The notes below the pieces were generated by a model. It worked only from the letters and a program-made list of their open reading frames with translations, was not told where the DNA came from and did not search any database. Positions 1,970 to 9,633 of a DNA stretch of 42,336 nt are shown here, piece by piece. Each line of letters opens with the position of its first letter. The first letter of the stretch is position 1. This stretch comes from an uncultured Lewinella sp. Its GTDB lineage: Bacteria; Bacteroidota; Bacteroidia; Chitinophagales; Saprospiraceae. A program made the translations under genes and the position numbers. The stretch lies in NCBI GenBank assembly GCA_913056515.1, contig CAJXMP010000005.1, positions 1 to 42,336 of the forward strand, written 5' to 3'.

Positions 1970-2884
1970 CTATGACTTAATTCTGTCGAATTTATAGATT
2001 ATTGCCTGTCGATCTTTCGATTCGTTGCAAATATACAGGTTTTCAGCTTTGTCAAAGCATATTCCTTCAGGTTGAATGAAATTGTCTTTATCCAACTTCA
2101 CCATGGTAAGTATATTAAAGCTTGAATCAAGAACCACCAATAACTTACCTACAGAAGATAAAATGTACATATTACCCGTTGATGGTTGAATGGCAATAGC
2201 TGAAGGCTCGAAAGCAAACTCTTTAGTTTGTGGTTCAAATCGCTTTAATAACTTGTGTGCTTTTGGCAACTCTGGATGCTCTTTAATGAAGGTATAAAAA
2301 GCTTCTTTTCGAATAAATATTGGGTGATCTACATCGAGCTGTAGCTGCTCTAAATTAAAGGCGTAAATGGCTCTGTAATCTACTTCTTTGATAGATTCTT
2401 GCTTAAGTTCAGCACTTCCTTTACAGGCTAATAGCAATCTATTATTGGCACCATCAAATCCCAAGCCTTCTACATCGTTGAAGGTATTCAAGGGCGTGTT
2501 GAATTTGGTGAAATCACCATTGGTGATAGACTGTGTGTTTTCAAAGTGATAGAGTGTTCCTGAGCTTTTGAGTATGAAAATACTGGTATCAATTAAGGAC
2601 AAGTCTTCATAGTCTCCAGCTTTGTGGAAGGTATCTTCTTGGACAATTTGACCGGTGGTTGGATTTAAGGAATACAGTATACCTAATTCATCGGTGATGC
2701 CTTTTATGGTTTCAGAAACTGGGTCAAAGGCTATTCCAGAGATTTCATTGAGCTTTTCCTCTAATACTAGTGTTTGGTCCGGTTTTGATAAGTCATAGGA
2801 AATGGGATAATCAAAAGGAACCTGACTAGTACATGCTTGAGTGATTAAGGCCAAGCAGAGCATCAATGGGATTTGTTTGATCAT
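1970..2884 (-). CDS. SdiA-regulated-domain lipoprotein (beta-propeller-like)
   Basis: The 304-residue protein starts with a lipoprotein signal and a probable lipidated Cys18 in ITQAC, a slightly non-canonical lipobox. The rest looks like the SdiA-regulated family: repeats of the type ISGIAFDP, IKGITDELGILYSLN, VEGLGFDG, PSAIAIQPSTGNMYILS, and PEGICFDKAENLYICNES, which together suggest a propeller fold that senses or binds an unknown ligand at the periplasmic face or outer membrane. It has no enzyme motif that I recognise. Its start lies 2 bases downstream of the stop of the large cyclase gene, so both are almost certainly on one transcript. The family name reflects regulation in enterobacteria and does not imply that SdiA exists here. 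Precise function is unknown. Confidence 0.8.
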   Translation of the reverse strand: MIKQIPLMLCLALITQACTSQVPFDYPISYDLSKPDQTLVLEEKLNEISGIAFDPVSETIKGITDELGILYSLNPTTGQIVQEDTFHKAGDYEDLSLIDTSIFILKSSGTLYHFENTQSITNGDFTKFNTPLNTFNDVEGLGFDGANNRLLLACKGSAELKQESIKEVDYRAIYAFNLEQLQLDVDHPIFIRKEAFYTFIKEHPELPKAHKLLKRFEPQTKEFAFEPSAIAIQPSTGNMYILSSVGKLLVVLDSSFNILTMVKLDKDNFIQPEGICFDKAENLYICNESKDRQAIIYKFDRIKS

Positions 2885-2886
2885 AT

Positions 2887-5800
2887 TTATGAGATTGCTT
2901 TAGTTTTCAGGGAGTCAATGCGCATTTTGATGCTATAGTCAGGTGTGGCTTTATAGAGTGTATTTAATATGGTTAAAGCCTCTGCTCTGAATTCATCCGC
3001 ACCAGTTAGCTGATATTTAACGCAAAGCACTAGACCTTTATTTTCAGCTGTCAGTTCTTCCTCTTCTAATTGTTTAATAACGCGTTTAGCATCTTCAAAT
3101 TCCTCAATGGCTATAAGGTAGTCCGCTTTTGCGATGCTTAATTGGAAAAGTAATTGCTTGTTACCCAATTTATAGGCTATTGAAGTTGCCTCCTCCAGAA
3201 CTGGCATGATTTCATCGTATTTTTCTAATGCGATGAGCACCAGCGACTTTTCGTACAGGCTTTGACCAAGTACTAATTGGTTTTGGGTTATTCGGGTAAG
3301 TTCTATAGCTTGATTATAGTACTTAAGGGATTGTTTGTATTCTTTGAGGAAGAAATAAACATCGCCCAAGGTGTTGACAGCCTTGGCTTTTCCTTTTTTA
3401 TAGTCTAGCTTATCGGAAAGGTGTATAGCTTGTTCAAGGGTTTCAATAGCTTCGTCGAATTCACCCATTTTACTTTGTAGGTCTCCGATTAGATTGAGCG
3501 CTATGGATATACCTTGCTTGTCTCCTAATTCTTTCGTTAACTGGAGGTCTTTTTGGTAAAAGTCCATAGCCATTCGGTAATATCCTTTTTGTTCATGTAG
3601 ACTTCCCAGACTTCCTGTTGCAATAGCCGTAAGTCTTTTATTGTCAAGCTCCTCAGCTAGTTTAATACCTTTCTCTAAGGACTCTTGTGCCCGTTCGTTT
3701 TCACCTTTTTCTGTAAGTAAAATACCCTTGTTGATAGATAGATTAGCAATACCTGTTTTGTCTCCTGCAGCAGTACACTCAACAATTTCTTCATCTAAAT
3801 ATTTGATGCCTCGATCGTAGTCTCCTAGATTCATGTAGGTCAGGGCTAGATTCGCTACAATTTGGGCATTTTTGTCTCGATAGCCTACCTCTTTACTGCG
3901 TTCTAAACTATTAATAAAGTGTATTTCAGCTTCTTGGTATTCAGCTTTTCGGAAGTAGAGCAGGCCTAGGTTTCCAGAGACTTTCGAAGCTCCAACTTTA
4001 TCATTAATAACGCTAAATAATTCAATAGCCTTATCAAAGTAATGTCCCGCGTCTTTATAATTGCCTAATAATAAGTGTAGATATCCTATTGCATTGTTCG
4101 CTCTACCCATCAATGTTTTGGAGTTCAATTTATTGGATAGATAGAGTGCTTCCGAATAGGTTTCGTTTGCTTCATCCCATTTGCCAGTAACTTGGAGAAT
4201 GTCTCCAATCCTTATTAGGACTTTAAAATGAACAGCAAAGTCCTTTGAGTTTTTGACTAGTGCTAATAATTTTTGGTAGTAGATATTAGCTTGTTCGTTC
4301 TGGAAATTGTCTTTAAAATAATCTCCAGCTTTTAGTAAATACTCTTTTGTTTTAGGGGTGTTTTCGGCTTTTTCATAGTGGAAAACTAAGTCCACGAAAC
4401 GTTGCCTTAAGTTAGTAGAAAATATATTTTCTATAGCATCTGCAGTAGCTTGGTGCAAGGTTTTCAATCGAGTATGCAACTGCATATCATAGATTACCTC
4501 GTGTTGCATGGAGTGCTTGAAGCCATACCTTCCTTTTGAAAGTGGTCTTAGAATATTGTTGTTTTCTGCTTCTTTCAAAGAGGCTTTACGCTGATCATAA
4601 GCCTCTTGTTGTTCAAAAATGGACTTTTGCTTCAGAATGTCTTCGAGTACCGAAACTTCAAATTCTCTTCCAATAACAGCGGCAACTTTAAGTAATTCTC
4701 TAGCTGGACTACTTAGGTTATCCACTTTGGCTACTAGCAGGGCATTGATATTATTGTTCAGCTTAATATCTGCGTCTTGAACCACCCAATTATTGTCTTG
4801 AAAACTAAGCAGTTGATTTGATTTAAAATAATCAATTAACTGCTCGATGTAGAATGGGTTTCCGTTAGAAGTGTTTTGGAGATTTTGAAGGGATTCTTCC
4901 GAAAGTTCAGCTCCTAATAATGCCTTACAAAAAGCCTTTATACCTGAATTACTTAAGGGTTCTAAGGGGACATGTAATACTGATACAGGTCGAGGGATTT
5001 GATCAAGATTTAAAAATTCCTTGGGTTTACTGATTCCATCAGCCCTAAGGGCAAAAAGGATGATCAAAGATCTATTTTGGAAACTATTTAAGAGTTCAAC
5101 AATGAATGCTTTGGATCGCTGATCTAACCAATGGGCATCATCCACTAATATTACTGTTGGCTTAATCCTAGCTTGAATTTGAAAGAATACGCTTAAAGCT
5201 CGAATGCTTGCTGTATATTTTTCTTTGGCATCTAATCTTTTGTAGATGGAATTGGCATCTACTTTTAAGTTTAGAATAGCTTTGTATGTGGAATAAAGCC
5301 GCTTGACTTCTTGTTCTGTTTCTGGCCAATAGCTTCGTGTTTGTTCTAAGAGTTTTTCAAAATTAGATTCAAACTTTGCTAAAGTCTTTTCCTCTGACTG
5401 ATTTGCCCGTGCTTGGAAGAATTTTCTCAGATATTTTACAAAAGGATTAAGCGGATTTTGTAGGATCTGATCTGCTTCGGTATGAATCCAATTCAAGTTA
5501 TTATCTAGGGCTTTTTGTAATTCATAGGCTAATCGGGATTTCCCGATACCCGCTTCTCCTGTGAGGAAGCAGATTCCAGATCGCTGGGCTAATTGATGTT
5601 TTCTTACGAAAGCAATTAGGTTGATGAGTTCTTTCTCTCTGCCGATTAGTTTACCAGAGAATACAATATGATCGGATTTTTCGGACTTGGCTTTTAACTC
5701 ATAGGTTTTGATCAGCCCTTCAATTCCTTTGTAGCGAATTTGACCTTTATTTTTAAATTGGAATCCTGTGTGTTGGGCGATTTCTTCATCTACATATATT

Positions 5801-6951
5801 TCATTCCAATTGGCATAGGTCATTAGTCTTGCGGCTAGGTTTACACGATTACCCACTGCTGCAAATTGACTCATATGCTGACCACCAACCATTCCTGTAA
5901 AAGCTTGTCCTGAAGTAATACCCATTCTATACTTCAGGCCTTCAAACGTTGCCAACAATGATTTTAATGTATCTGCAAATTCTAATGCCCGTTCAATATT
6001 GTTTTCAAAACTAACTGGAGCTCCAAATATGGCCACTAATACTCCGCCTTTATCCCCAAAGTCAACTTCTTTAAAATATCCGGCAAAGCGATAGATTTCT
6101 CGAATAAAAATGGATGCAAATTTATTTAAAGCATCGTGATTGTCTACCCCATCAAAGGAGCAGAATACAGAGATAACAGATCTAAACTCTCCCTTTCCGA
6201 TAAAATGAATCACATCGTCAGGTAGAAATTGGCTAGATAATTCATGTATATCGAGACTTAGTTCTGGTATAGTATGATTAATGGGTCTCGGAGCTTTGTT
6301 ATCCGTTAATAAAAAATAACCTGCTTTATTAAGGGTAGAGGTGTGTACATGGGGTGGTAGAATATTTTGAAGCCGTTGGTCTAATACTATTTCTTGGTGA
6401 GAAGCACGTATTTGACTTTCGGCTGCAGCTTCTACTCCTGGTCCTCTGAAATAGTAAGATTTTTGTTCTTTCCCGATTATACCCCATTCTACCTGTCCAT
6501 AGGAGAGGCCAATTTTAATCCCAAATTTGAATTCATCTAATTCAAAATTGTTTTTGATGAAAAGGTTTCGAATGTCACAGGCTGCGTGTAATAATCGATT
6601 GACATTTTCCTCATCTTGCTCTGGGAAAATAGCAGTAAATGCGTCCCCTGCAAAATAGGGTATAAATCCACCTTGTTGGTGGACCAACTCTACCATGGGG
6701 CCAAAGATATTATTTAAAATATCTGAAAGCTTTTCGGCTCCTGCACTGCCATCTTTCATCAAGCTTTCCGTCAATGGAGTGAAACCAGAGAGATCTACAA
6801 ACATAGTACCCGCCTGCAAAGTGCCTTGTAAGCGATCATCATGGAATTGACGAAGAATAAATGCTGGTACTAAATGTTTCAATAGAATTCGAGTAGGGAT
6901 AAATAAAAACTTATCCACAAATTTAGTTAAAAGCCAAAAGATATAAGCCAA
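2887..6951 (-). CDS. Twin class III nucleotidyl cyclase / AAA ATPase / TPR protein (soluble adenylyl cyclase-like)
   Basis: At 1354 residues this has the domain order of soluble adenylyl cyclase (ADCY10): cyclase C1 (about 47-195), cyclase C2 (about 257-420), a P-loop NTPase (about 435-700) and a long TPR array (about 880-1340). C1 carries both metal-binding aspartates (Asp53 in FVDLSGFT, Asp103 in AGDAF) but has Glu174 and Glu178 where the transition-state Asn and Arg should be. C2 is the mirror image: Ser265 replaces the first Asp, while Asn371 and Arg375 (VNLAAR) are intact. Together they can build one complete active site. The purine-specifying Lys of C1 is Tyr99 and the matching C2 Thr/Asp position is Ala364, so base specificity is unclear. 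Walker A is GEAGIGKS (465-472) and Walker B ILVDDAH (601-607). No signal peptide; the first 30 residues are hydrophobic and could touch the membrane. It heads a two-gene unit with the lipoprotein at 1970-2884. Confidence 0.9.
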   Translation of the reverse strand: MAYIFWLLTKFVDKFLFIPTRILLKHLVPAFILRQFHDDRLQGTLQAGTMFVDLSGFTPLTESLMKDGSAGAEKLSDILNNIFGPMVELVHQQGGFIPYFAGDAFTAIFPEQDEENVNRLLHAACDIRNLFIKNNFELDEFKFGIKIGLSYGQVEWGIIGKEQKSYYFRGPGVEAAAESQIRASHQEIVLDQRLQNILPPHVHTSTLNKAGYFLLTDNKAPRPINHTIPELSLDIHELSSQFLPDDVIHFIGKGEFRSVISVFCSFDGVDNHDALNKFASIFIREIYRFAGYFKEVDFGDKGGVLVAIFGAPVSFENNIERALEFADTLKSLLATFEGLKYRMGITSGQAFTGMVGGQHMSQFAAVGNRVNLAARLMTYANWNEIYVDEEIAQHTGFQFKNKGQIRYKGIEGLIKTYELKAKSEKSDHIVFSGKLIGREKELINLIAFVRKHQLAQRSGICFLTGEAGIGKSRLAYELQKALDNNLNWIHTEADQILQNPLNPFVKYLRKFFQARANQSEEKTLAKFESNFEKLLEQTRSYWPETEQEVKRLYSTYKAILNLKVDANSIYKRLDAKEKYTASIRALSVFFQIQARIKPTVILVDDAHWLDQRSKAFIVELLNSFQNRSLIILFALRADGISKPKEFLNLDQIPRPVSVLHVPLEPLSNSGIKAFCKALLGAELSEESLQNLQNTSNGNPFYIEQLIDYFKSNQLLSFQDNNWVVQDADIKLNNNINALLVAKVDNLSSPARELLKVAAVIGREFEVSVLEDILKQKSIFEQQEAYDQRKASLKEAENNNILRPLSKGRYGFKHSMQHEVIYDMQLHTRLKTLHQATADAIENIFSTNLRQRFVDLVFHYEKAENTPKTKEYLLKAGDYFKDNFQNEQANIYYQKLLALVKNSKDFAVHFKVLIRIGDILQVTGKWDEANETYSEALYLSNKLNSKTLMGRANNAIGYLHLLLGNYKDAGHYFDKAIELFSVINDKVGASKVSGNLGLLYFRKAEYQEAEIHFINSLERSKEVGYRDKNAQIVANLALTYMNLGDYDRGIKYLDEEIVECTAAGDKTGIANLSINKGILLTEKGENERAQESLEKGIKLAEELDNKRLTAIATGSLGSLHEQKGYYRMAMDFYQKDLQLTKELGDKQGISIALNLIGDLQSKMGEFDEAIETLEQAIHLSDKLDYKKGKAKAVNTLGDVYFFLKEYKQSLKYYNQAIELTRITQNQLVLGQSLYEKSLVLIALEKYDEIMPVLEEATSIAYKLGNKQLLFQLSIAKADYLIAIEEFEDAKRVIKQLEEEELTAENKGLVLCVKYQLTGADEFRAEALTILNTLYKATPDYSIKMRIDSLKTKAIS

Positions 6952-7152: not shown

Positions 7153-9633
7153 ATGAAACGTAGTCTGCAGTTTTTAGCTGTGTTTATCCTTTTCTTTCAA
7201 GCTATACATTTGTATGCTCAGGATGCTAGTACGGAGAAAAGGTCATTTCAAATCTCTAAGCAAGATGCAGGGGTTAAGATAGATGGTCGTTTAGATGATC
7301 CTATCTGGGCGAAGCTTTCACCTATCAAGGACTTTACTATGTCAACACCAAGGTTCATGGACACTCCGAGTTATGATACCGAGGTGAAAATGTTTTACAC
7401 CGACGAAGCGGTATATATTGGAGCTCACATGATTGATGAGGAGCCCGATAAGATTCTAAAGGAAATGACCAAGCGCGATGAATTGGGGAATACTGACTTT
7501 TTTGGTTTCCTGATTGATGCTTACCAGGATGGAATAAATGCCTTAGGATTCTATATAACACCTCAGGAAATACAATATGACATTAAGTATTCTGCCGACT
7601 CAGATGGGAGAGGTTCAAGTATAGTACAAATTGGAGATCGTTCATGGGATGCTGTATGGGATGCTCAAGTAACGATCGTTGATAATGGTTGGATTGTAGA
7701 GTTTGAGATACCTTTCGCAGCCTTGCGTTTTCCAACAAAAGAAATTCAGAGCTGGAATATTAATTTTTTCAGGCACTTTAGGAGGAATAGAGAAAATATA
7801 TTTTGGAATCCGGTCAATCCAGAGGTTTTTGGTTTAGTCAACCAGTCTGGTACCGTTCACGGTATTGCAAACATTAAATCTCCCGTTAGACTTCAAGCTA
7901 CTCCTTATGTAACCTCTTACATCAATAATGTTCGTGAAGGTCAAGAATCCTTGTGGGGAAGATCTTTAAGTGGTGGTATGGATATTCGATATGGGATCAA
8001 TGATGCCTTTACTTTGGACATGACACTTATCCCGGATTTTGGGGAAGCCATTTCGGATAATCAGGTCCTTAATTTATCCCCTTTCGAAGTTCGATTTGAT
8101 GAAAATAGACAGTTTTTCAAAGAAGGGATTGAATTGTTTAATAAAGGCAATTTATTTTATTCGAGAAGGATAGGAGGCACACCTTTTGGGTATTATGATT
8201 TGGATGAGCGATTAAATGAAGGCGATTCCATTTTATCTAATCCATCAGAGACTCAACTATTGAATGCGACTAAGATTTCAGGTAGAAATTCCAATGGTTT
8301 AGGTATAGGCTTTTTTAATGCTGTCTCCAGTAATACTTATGCAGAGATTATAGATACGGAGAACCAGATTCGCGAAGAATTAACTAGTCCGATAACGAAT
8401 TATAATGTATTTGTGCTGGATCAGAATTTAAAGAATAATTCCTCTATTTCTCTAGTGAATACTAATGTGCTAAGAGTTGGTTCGGCATATGATGCCAATG
8501 TTACGGCAGGATTATTTAATCTTTTCACAGAAAATTCGACCTATAACTTGGGTGGGTTCTATAAACTATCCCAGAAGTACTATGCGGACAGCACAGCCTT
8601 AGGTCATTCCGGACAGATAAGACTGGAGAAACCCACGGGTAATTTTATTTATGAGTTTCGTTACTTAGTGGAGAGTGATACCTATGACCCTAATGATCTG
8701 GGTTTTCTGTTTAATAATAACTCTAGAGAACTTTCCGCTATGCTCATGTATCGGGAATTCAAACCTAAGAATAAGCATATTAATAGTTGGAGAGTAAGAA
8801 CTTCAGCGACCTATTCCAGGGTTTATAATCCTAATGCTTTTGCAGAGATATTCCACCGTACATGGGGGAATATCGAAACCAAAAACTTTAATGTTTTCGG
8901 TTGGTGGGTCAATGGGAGTATGATAGAAAGTAATGATTATTTTGAAGCAAGGACTGCTGGAAGAGTGTTTAAGAAACCAGCTGACATTGCTACTGGTCCA
9001 TATATTTCAACTGACTATAGGAAGCGGCTCAGCATGGACATGTTTGGAGGATATCGCTTTATTCCTGGATGGGAAGGGGCTTCCATTTATGATTTTAATA
9101 TTGGACCTAAGTTTAGGGTTAATGATCGAATGCTTTTAGAGTGGGATATAGGTATGGAGCATTTCATCAAAGAAAGAGGATTTGTGGATAATTATGTAGA
9201 TGGAGCAGGCGAGGATCAAATTCTATTTGGTATTCGGGATAGAAGATCCTTGGTCAATAACTTCAAAGTCAGATACTCTTTTACATCCAATATGACGCTA
9301 AATGTTAGAACACGCCATTACTGGAGTGTTGCTGAGTATGAAGGCTTTGGCAACTTAGATTTGGATGGTTATTTAACTCCTGTAGATGGCACATTCAATT
9401 ATGATCGAAGCTTTACTTCTTTCTTAGTGGATGCAGTGTTCCAGTGGAGGTTTGCACCAGGGTCAGATATTTTCATTGTTTGGAAAAATTCGATTGATGC
9501 ATTTGAAACAGATCCATCCATGATCTCTTATGAGTTTATGGATAATTTCGACCAATTTTCGAATTACCCCATATACAATACTTTATCTTTTAAGTTGATC
9601 TATTTCTTAGACTACAATCAACTGGTTAAATAA
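7153..9633 (+). CDS. DUF5916 outer-membrane protein with N-terminal CBM9-like domain
   Basis: The 826-residue protein has a signal peptide with likely cleavage after YAQ (residue 23). Next comes a carbohydrate-binding family 9-like beta-sandwich (about 35-235) with the typical VKIDGRLDDPIWAKL start and the WDAVWDAQV and VEFEIPFAALRF segments. The remainder (about 240-826) is the DUF5916 region, with FGEAISDNQVLNLSPFE, DENRQFFKEGIELF and FYSRRIGG blocks and aromatic, alternating strands consistent with an outer-membrane beta-barrel. Members are common in Bacteroidota and often sit with hydrolase or transporter genes; the substrate is not known. Here it stands alone, divergent from the cyclase gene and closed by a strong terminator at 9632-9666. 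The ATG at 7153 is chosen because it starts the signal peptide. Confidence 0.85.
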   Translation: MKRSLQFLAVFILFFQAIHLYAQDASTEKRSFQISKQDAGVKIDGRLDDPIWAKLSPIKDFTMSTPRFMDTPSYDTEVKMFYTDEAVYIGAHMIDEEPDKILKEMTKRDELGNTDFFGFLIDAYQDGINALGFYITPQEIQYDIKYSADSDGRGSSIVQIGDRSWDAVWDAQVTIVDNGWIVEFEIPFAALRFPTKEIQSWNINFFRHFRRNRENIFWNPVNPEVFGLVNQSGTVHGIANIKSPVRLQATPYVTSYINNVREGQESLWGRSLSGGMDIRYGINDAFTLDMTLIPDFGEAISDNQVLNLSPFEVRFDENRQFFKEGIELFNKGNLFYSRRIGGTPFGYYDLDERLNEGDSILSNPSETQLLNATKISGRNSNGLGIGFFNAVSSNTYAEIIDTENQIREELTSPITNYNVFVLDQNLKNNSSISLVNTNVLRVGSAYDANVTAGLFNLFTENSTYNLGGFYKLSQKYYADSTALGHSGQIRLEKPTGNFIYEFRYLVESDTYDPNDLGFLFNNNSRELSAMLMYREFKPKNKHINSWRVRTSATYSRVYNPNAFAEIFHRTWGNIETKNFNVFGWWVNGSMIESNDYFEARTAGRVFKKPADIATGPYISTDYRKRLSMDMFGGYRFIPGWEGASIYDFNIGPKFRVNDRMLLEWDIGMEHFIKERGFVDNYVDGAGEDQILFGIRDRRSLVNNFKVRYSFTSNMTLNVRTRHYWSVAEYEGFGNLDLDGYLTPVDGTFNYDRSFTSFLVDAVFQWRFAPGSDIFIVWKNSIDAFETDPSMISYEFMDNFDQFSNYPIYNTLSFKLIYFLDYNQLVK

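Follow-up and report, generated by a model that had tools for sequence, protein, structure and literature searches.

A Tandem Saprospiraceae Protein with the Architecture of Soluble Adenylyl Cyclase Is Probably a Guanylyl Cyclase

Gene and Domain Layout

We describe here a tandem cyclase-ATPase-TPR gene on the minus strand (2887..6951) of a 42,336-nucleotide stretch of DNA from an uncultured Lewinella sp. (family Saprospiraceae; contig CAJXMP010000005.1), called the window below. Read from a TTG at 6951, the gene encodes a protein of 1354 amino acids, P0001, in which the first base of residue n is 6951-3(n-1). We compare its active site, its predicted fold and its conservation with those of known cyclases, and we will argue on sequence grounds that this tandem Saprospiraceae protein is probably a guanylyl cyclase.

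The Guanylate_cyc family of Pfam (PF00211) matches two stretches of P0001, with 83.9 bits against a curated cut-off of 21.9. The first cyclase domain, C1, covers approximately residues 25-215 (6307..6879, minus strand, as for all parts of P0001) and contains the metal-binding D53 and D103 as well as Y99 and K146. The second, C2, covers approximately residues 240-420 (5692..6234), with E295 and A364 at the base positions, N371 and R375 at the catalytic ones, and S265 and G299. Behind these, on the C-terminal side, lies a P-loop ATPase domain (AAA_16, residues 434-631, 5059..5652), having a Walker A motif GEAGIGKS at 465-472 and a Walker B-like DDAHW at 604-608, and behind that a TPR region assigned by Pfam (approximately residues 915-1298, 3058..4209). 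Judged by its PF00211 score and by the divided set of metal and catalytic residues, P0001 is a class III nucleotide cyclase. Its predicted series of C1-C2, AAA ATPase and TPRs is also how the soluble adenylyl cyclase of mammals (sAC, ADCY10) is laid out; in sAC, too, a P-loop domain, predicted there to be P-loop/STAND, lies behind C1-C2 (PMC12802110).

An earlier sequence-only reading of this gene, made without database searches, had likened it to ADCY10 and proposed structure prediction and alignment with that enzyme as the check. An AlphaFold2 model of residues 20-425, built with 18 family rows, has a mean pLDDT of 88.9 and a pTM of 0.87. In a Foldseek search with this model the top 24 rows were all human sAC, and VIA-align places 404 of its residues on sAC (Z 41.8, rmsd 2.6, 22% identity). 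Behind sAC comes another kind, the membrane cyclase AC9 (Z 37.0), and single-domain cyclases such as CaGC and Cya2 follow at Z of about 20. A sequence profile search also gives ADCY10 first (E 7.8e-41). As modelled, the tandem C1-C2 part has the sAC fold over its full length.

The Composite Active Site

Aligned with human sAC, C1 shows the two aspartates for the metals, D53 and D103, and glutamate at the Asn (E174) and Arg (E178) positions, just as the sequence-only reading had it. C2 has the catalytic pair N371 and R375 and lacks the first aspartate (S265), as was also claimed there; the second aspartate turns out to be gone as well (G299). K146 of C1 aligns with sAC Lys144.

The long homologues show the same division. 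Within the family, 95 of the 199 genomes searched carry one (matches at E of 8.9e-29 or below, the window's own genome counted), and D53, D103, N371 and R375 are each kept in all 95, while none of them has Asp at 265 or 299. Position 174 is Asp in 55 of the 95 and Asn in 8, position 178 is variable, with Arg in 8, and both the C1 Asn and the C1 Arg are absent in 80; in these rows the E174/E178 pair itself is not a family trait. By its aligned residues P0001 has a single composite site, with the metals from C1 and Asn/Arg from C2, and the fold match suggests that the two sets of residues meet in space. On the asymmetric one-site logic and the kinship to ADCY10, the sAC alignment, the profile search and the fold match agree with the earlier proposal.

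The Base-Recognition Positions

In sAC, Lys334 of C2 recognises the ATP base via water (PMC12867704) and Thr405, also of C2, contacts adenine (PMC12250328), while Lys95 and Arg176 of C1 are ligands of bicarbonate (PMC12867704). All four are replaced in P0001. The human sAC alignment places Glu295 (codon 6067..6069) on Lys334, Ala364 (5860..5862) on Thr405, Tyr99 (6655..6657) on Lys95 and Ala177 on Arg176. There is no gap from F289 through the shared DKG motif of the C2 loop, which sets Glu295 on Lys334, and the family profile gives the same register; in the model, E295 lies inside a predicted strand (model residues 273-280, protein residues 292-299). Ala364 stands seven residues ahead of Asn371, the same spacing as for sAC Thr405.

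The sequence-only reading had the adenine-specifying pair replaced by Tyr99 and Ala364. The second of these holds and the first does not, as Tyr99, four residues ahead of D103 in C1, aligns with a bicarbonate ligand and is ruled out as a base-recognising residue. The idea of altered base recognition itself stands, with half of its evidence exchanged: Glu295 in C2 takes the place of Tyr99 in C1. K301 of the DKG motif was also considered as the adenine lysine and ruled out, since the FDKG of sAC (338-341) is listed apart from Lys334 (PMC12867704).

Single-domain cyclases from genomes of the same family provide an independent anchor, Gxxx[K/E], for the Glu295 column. Of 16 loci taken for contrast, six (L172, L173, L174, L178, L180, L181) gave no row because of a motif mismatch. 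The column holds Lys in 10 of 12 rows, one of these (L176) being poorly aligned, and Gln and Glu, the latter with Gly, in one row each. The window's own genome, which is 87% complete, yielded a single further PF00211 cyclase, and this has Lys-Asp. The row with Glu-Gly, a pair like that of Cya2, is L182, a 402-residue frame with one cyclase domain, whose genome (G193) also carries a member of the tandem family; by its residues, L182 is a second candidate guanylyl cyclase.

Adenylyl cyclases have Lys together with Asp or Thr at the base positions, and P0001 does not. In guanylyl cyclases Glu replaces the Lys, and the second position is C, S, T, H, A or G (PMC4215837), a pattern within which E295/A364 falls. 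Because this combination typifies guanylyl cyclases, the "other nucleotide" that the earlier reading left open can be narrowed to a specific guess, GTP. The pair of Cya2 is Glu-Gly (PMC4215837), and in the bacterial guanylyl cyclase XC_0250 one substrate-specifying position is Ala, the A150S variant losing activity (PMC3770947).

The conservation of the pair, like that of the four catalytic residues, goes beyond chance. Among the 95 long homologues E295 is kept in 94, A364 in 88, K146 in 87 and Y99 in 85, and the departures from Glu/Ala are E/V (4), E/S (2), E/N (1) and Q/A (1). When the set is widened to 113 non-redundant loci, out of 122 examined, E295 occurs in 109, A364 in 103 and all six residues together in 102. 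These counts leave out 80 loci that were found with search patterns containing E295 and A364. A tree was made by a quick method from 62 rows out of 159, namely the 11 exceptions plus 51 of the 148 Glu/Ala rows, and in it the Glu/Ala rows cluster; the rows include pattern-found loci and some duplicates, L156/L158 were chosen as the outgroup, and the tree has several long branches. The tree does not give the order of the base-residue changes.

For bicarbonate, it is relevant that the Arg176 position has Arg in none of the 113 loci, and some animal sACs are without one of the two ligands (PMC12867704). The loss of both in the alignment argues against control of the human type, and would bar the label "bicarbonate-regulated sAC", while leaving that of an sAC-type fold.

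A Proposed GTP-Preferring Cyclase and Its Alternatives

From the architecture, the fold match of the model, the active-site residues and their conservation we infer the catalysis, its preference for GTP, the gating, the substrate and a signal. In our preferred reading, to which we give a probability of roughly 55%, P0001 has the architecture of sAC and is an active nucleotide cyclase with one site, with GTP as its preferred substrate and the ATPase/TPR part as its gate. The Glu/small-residue pair, the Ala of XC_0250 and the intact catalytic residues are among the reasons for it, and the sAC homologue of Dictyostelium, which encodes a guanylyl cyclase, is a precedent. C1 would bind two metals via D53 and D103, and C2 would hold the base and provide the catalytic residues, through E295, A364, N371 and R375; the pseudo-symmetric second site lacks metal aspartates. 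Glu295 and Ala364 would read guanine instead of adenine, with conversion of GTP to cGMP as the most likely reaction and perhaps some leftover use of ATP. The STAND-like ATPase and the TPRs would receive the signal and gate the cyclase.

For this last step, all homologues that cover the Walker A stretch (72 of 72) retain its Gly-Lys; the ATPase is therefore probably functional, and gating of the cyclase by it is possible. A model of residues 428-868 (pLDDT 80.3) best matches Apaf-1 and CED-4, with the MalT-system structure 8bob at rank 12 and other AAA proteins in between; all of these matches are weak, with E values of about 1e-6 to 1e-5 and TM-scores on the query of 0.34 to 0.52.

Several observations weigh against a GTP-preferring cyclase. 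K294, directly beside E295, is equally conserved (each 109 of 113), and a slip of the strand by one residue would bring a lysine back to the base position. The helper tyrosine, whose role in Cya2 is described in PMC4215837 and PMC4886424, is missing, with Ala374 in P0001 and Ala in 108 of 113 loci. Exchange of Lys for Glu in CyaG and Rv1625c abolished adenylyl cyclase activity, and the discussion in PMC4215837 tells of no gain in guanylyl cyclase activity. Among the commonest neighbour families of the homologues, to which annotation was confined, no cGMP receptor was identified. Finally, distant tandem relatives carry E/T (L155), N/T (L157), Q/T (L156), K/T (L158) and Q/A (L151), and tandem cyclases of Leptospira and Ensifer have L/T and E/M; since the pairs drift in this way, the base positions need not always mean GTP.

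Alternatively, P0001 may be an sAC-type adenylyl or dual ATP/GTP cyclase, in which adenine is read by other contacts and the altered pair only relaxes the specificity. The solved full-length structural matches are indeed adenylyl cyclases, sAC and then the membrane cyclases. Cya2, with its Glu-Gly pair, has concurrent adenylyl cyclase activity (PMC3591389), a triple mutant of Ma1120 handles ATP and GTP alike (PMC4215837), and cyclase specificity is set during catalysis, not on binding (PMC7384201). However, the base-lysine place is occupied by Glu in 94 of the 95 homologues, whereas 10 of the 12 other cyclase rows of the same family have Lys there, and the CyaG and Rv1625c mutants cited above lost just this activity. 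We regard this explanation as unlikely, though one to be kept in mind.

A nucleotide sensor, in which C1-C2 binds ATP or GTP without cyclase activity and reports to the ATPase/TPR part, would agree with the varying base residues of the distant tandem relatives, and one of the structural matches (6yii, Z 26.4), a Pseudomonas protein resembling class III cyclases, is titled "ATP-binding protein". A search of the open-licence literature found no paper on that protein. The sequence-only reading had offered "sense rather than synthesise" as one of its options, but a sensor would not obviously need the metal Asp pair and the catalytic Asn/Arg, all four of which are kept in 95 of 95 homologues, and we consider this option distinctly improbable. 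Pycsar phage-defence cyclases use CTP or UTP, and the PADLOC models for them match both cyclase domains of P0001, with a best E of 1.1e-12 on C1. A cCMP- or cUMP-forming enzyme of this kind, consistent with the loss of the purine lysine, is nevertheless very improbable, as the likeness is weak and of a kind to be expected of every class III domain, neither of the two directly adjoining genes matches a PADLOC model, about half of the sampled same-family genomes retain the cyclase gene, and Glu with a small residue is a known guanine pair (PMC4215837).

Comparison with Known Cyclases

The GTP-preferring cyclase proposed here has partial counterparts elsewhere. In Dictyostelium, an sAC homologue encodes a guanylyl cyclase (PMC6660944); this enzyme is eukaryotic, and it is likened here by description. 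Cya2 of Synechocystis shares the Glu at the base-lysine position and a small second residue (PMC4215837, PMC4886424), but it is a homodimer (PMC3591389), the residue is Gly, and it has the helper Tyr where P0001 has Ala374. XC_0250 of Xanthomonas campestris, a proven guanylyl cyclase, shares the Ala; there Leu and Ala replace the catalytic Asn/Arg (PMC3770947), which are invariant in the window family. DUF2652 proteins, distant relatives of the class III cyclases, belong to the same phylum (Bacteroidetes) and were predicted to be guanylate-cyclase-like from a Glu at the lysine position (PMC4886424). Unlike the tandem PF00211 protein of 1354 residues, they are mostly short and single-domain, with Glu-Lys/Arg pairs.

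Family Spread and Side Observations

An order-wide search at E 1e-30 matched 53 of 298 genomes, 50 of the same family (one match each) and 3 of another; it gave 54 matches, five of which (G330, G413, G416, G422, G432) lie outside the set of loci used. A phylum-wide search at E 1e-20 matched 3 of 395 genomes, all of the same family. Among 80 named loci, 60 are titled Saprospiraceae and 7 more Lewinella or Phaeodactylibacter. The nearest named relatives, 72 and 71% identical in the cyclase part, are labelled Sphingobacteriales and Saprospiraceae.

Some of the more distant cyclases deserve to be recorded. L158 (G325, another family of the same order) is a 25% identical tandem relative with Lys at the Lys95 and Lys334 places and Thr at that of Thr405. 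The Leptospira cyclase with Leu/Thr (L228) is a tandem sAC-type protein on plasmid lbp2 of Leptospira borgpetersenii, and the one with Glu/Met (L230) is of the same type, on a plasmid of Ensifer adhaerens. The rhizobial plasmid cyclases L229 and L231, having one cyclase domain and an ATPase part, show Lys/Ser. At L184 (G010, C38), in a genome with 30 PF00211 matches, two similar cyclase frames of 452 and 462 residues adjoin each other.

Start Codon and Neighbouring Genes

The TTG at 6951 adds 23 residues that are absent from six homologues aligned with P0001, which share sequence with it only from about residue 24-25. The open frame of one of the six, L009, starts at the position matching residue 24-25 or so. 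A second TTG (6880..6882, minus strand), at residue 24, adjoins this onset of family similarity; on the aligned sequences, the TTG at 6882 fits the family N-terminus better and may be the true start.

The next gene downstream, with an SdiA-regulated domain and, by eye, a lipoprotein-like start (1970..2884, minus), has its ATG 2 bases past the cyclase stop codon. Of the 67 named loci whose flank is long enough, 26 have an SdiA-regulated gene downstream in the cyclase's orientation; it is a possible functional partner of the cyclase. Upstream and divergent is a gene with CBM9-like and DUF5916 parts (7153..9633, plus), another conserved neighbour, with a divergent DUF5916 gene in 28 of 65 named loci. 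The commonest neighbour families of the homologues are those also present in the window. Neither conserved neighbour points to a cyclic-nucleotide pathway. Four cNMP-binding matches occur in the window's genome, in open frames 198-235 amino acids long, and phosphodiesterase PF00233 had no match there, with no control giving a match either.

Implications

The sAC-type architecture is already known in eukaryotes and bacteria, and the layout is not unique to P0001; PMC6660944 mentions bacterial sACs with P-loop domains. For guanylyl cyclases of sAC type, Dictyostelium already provides an example. What would be new is a guanylyl-type pair fixed in a bacterial sAC-type lineage. Searches of the open-licence literature found no description of the tandem Saprospiraceae family, and no paper on Saprospiraceae and guanylate cyclase. 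Bacterial guanylyl cyclases are called scarce in the title of a reference of PMC4215837, and what cGMP does in bacteria is poorly understood (PMC3770947).

The broader picture is one to which we give even odds: a Saprospiraceae lineage of sAC type that recognises guanine in a single composite site and so makes cGMP under the control of a STAND ATPase/TPR sensor, as a prokaryotic one-chain counterpart of the heteromeric guanylyl cyclases. If true, this conserved and common family, found in 95 of 199 genomes, would be a natural test of substrate switching in sAC-type cyclases, because Lys/Thr, Gln/Thr, Asn/Thr and Glu/Thr all occur among the tandem relatives from another family of the order. For sAC itself, no regulator specific to the full-length form is found in passages of PMC12802110, and the Saprospiraceae protein would then also serve as a bacterial model of how sAC is regulated through its P-loop/STAND part.

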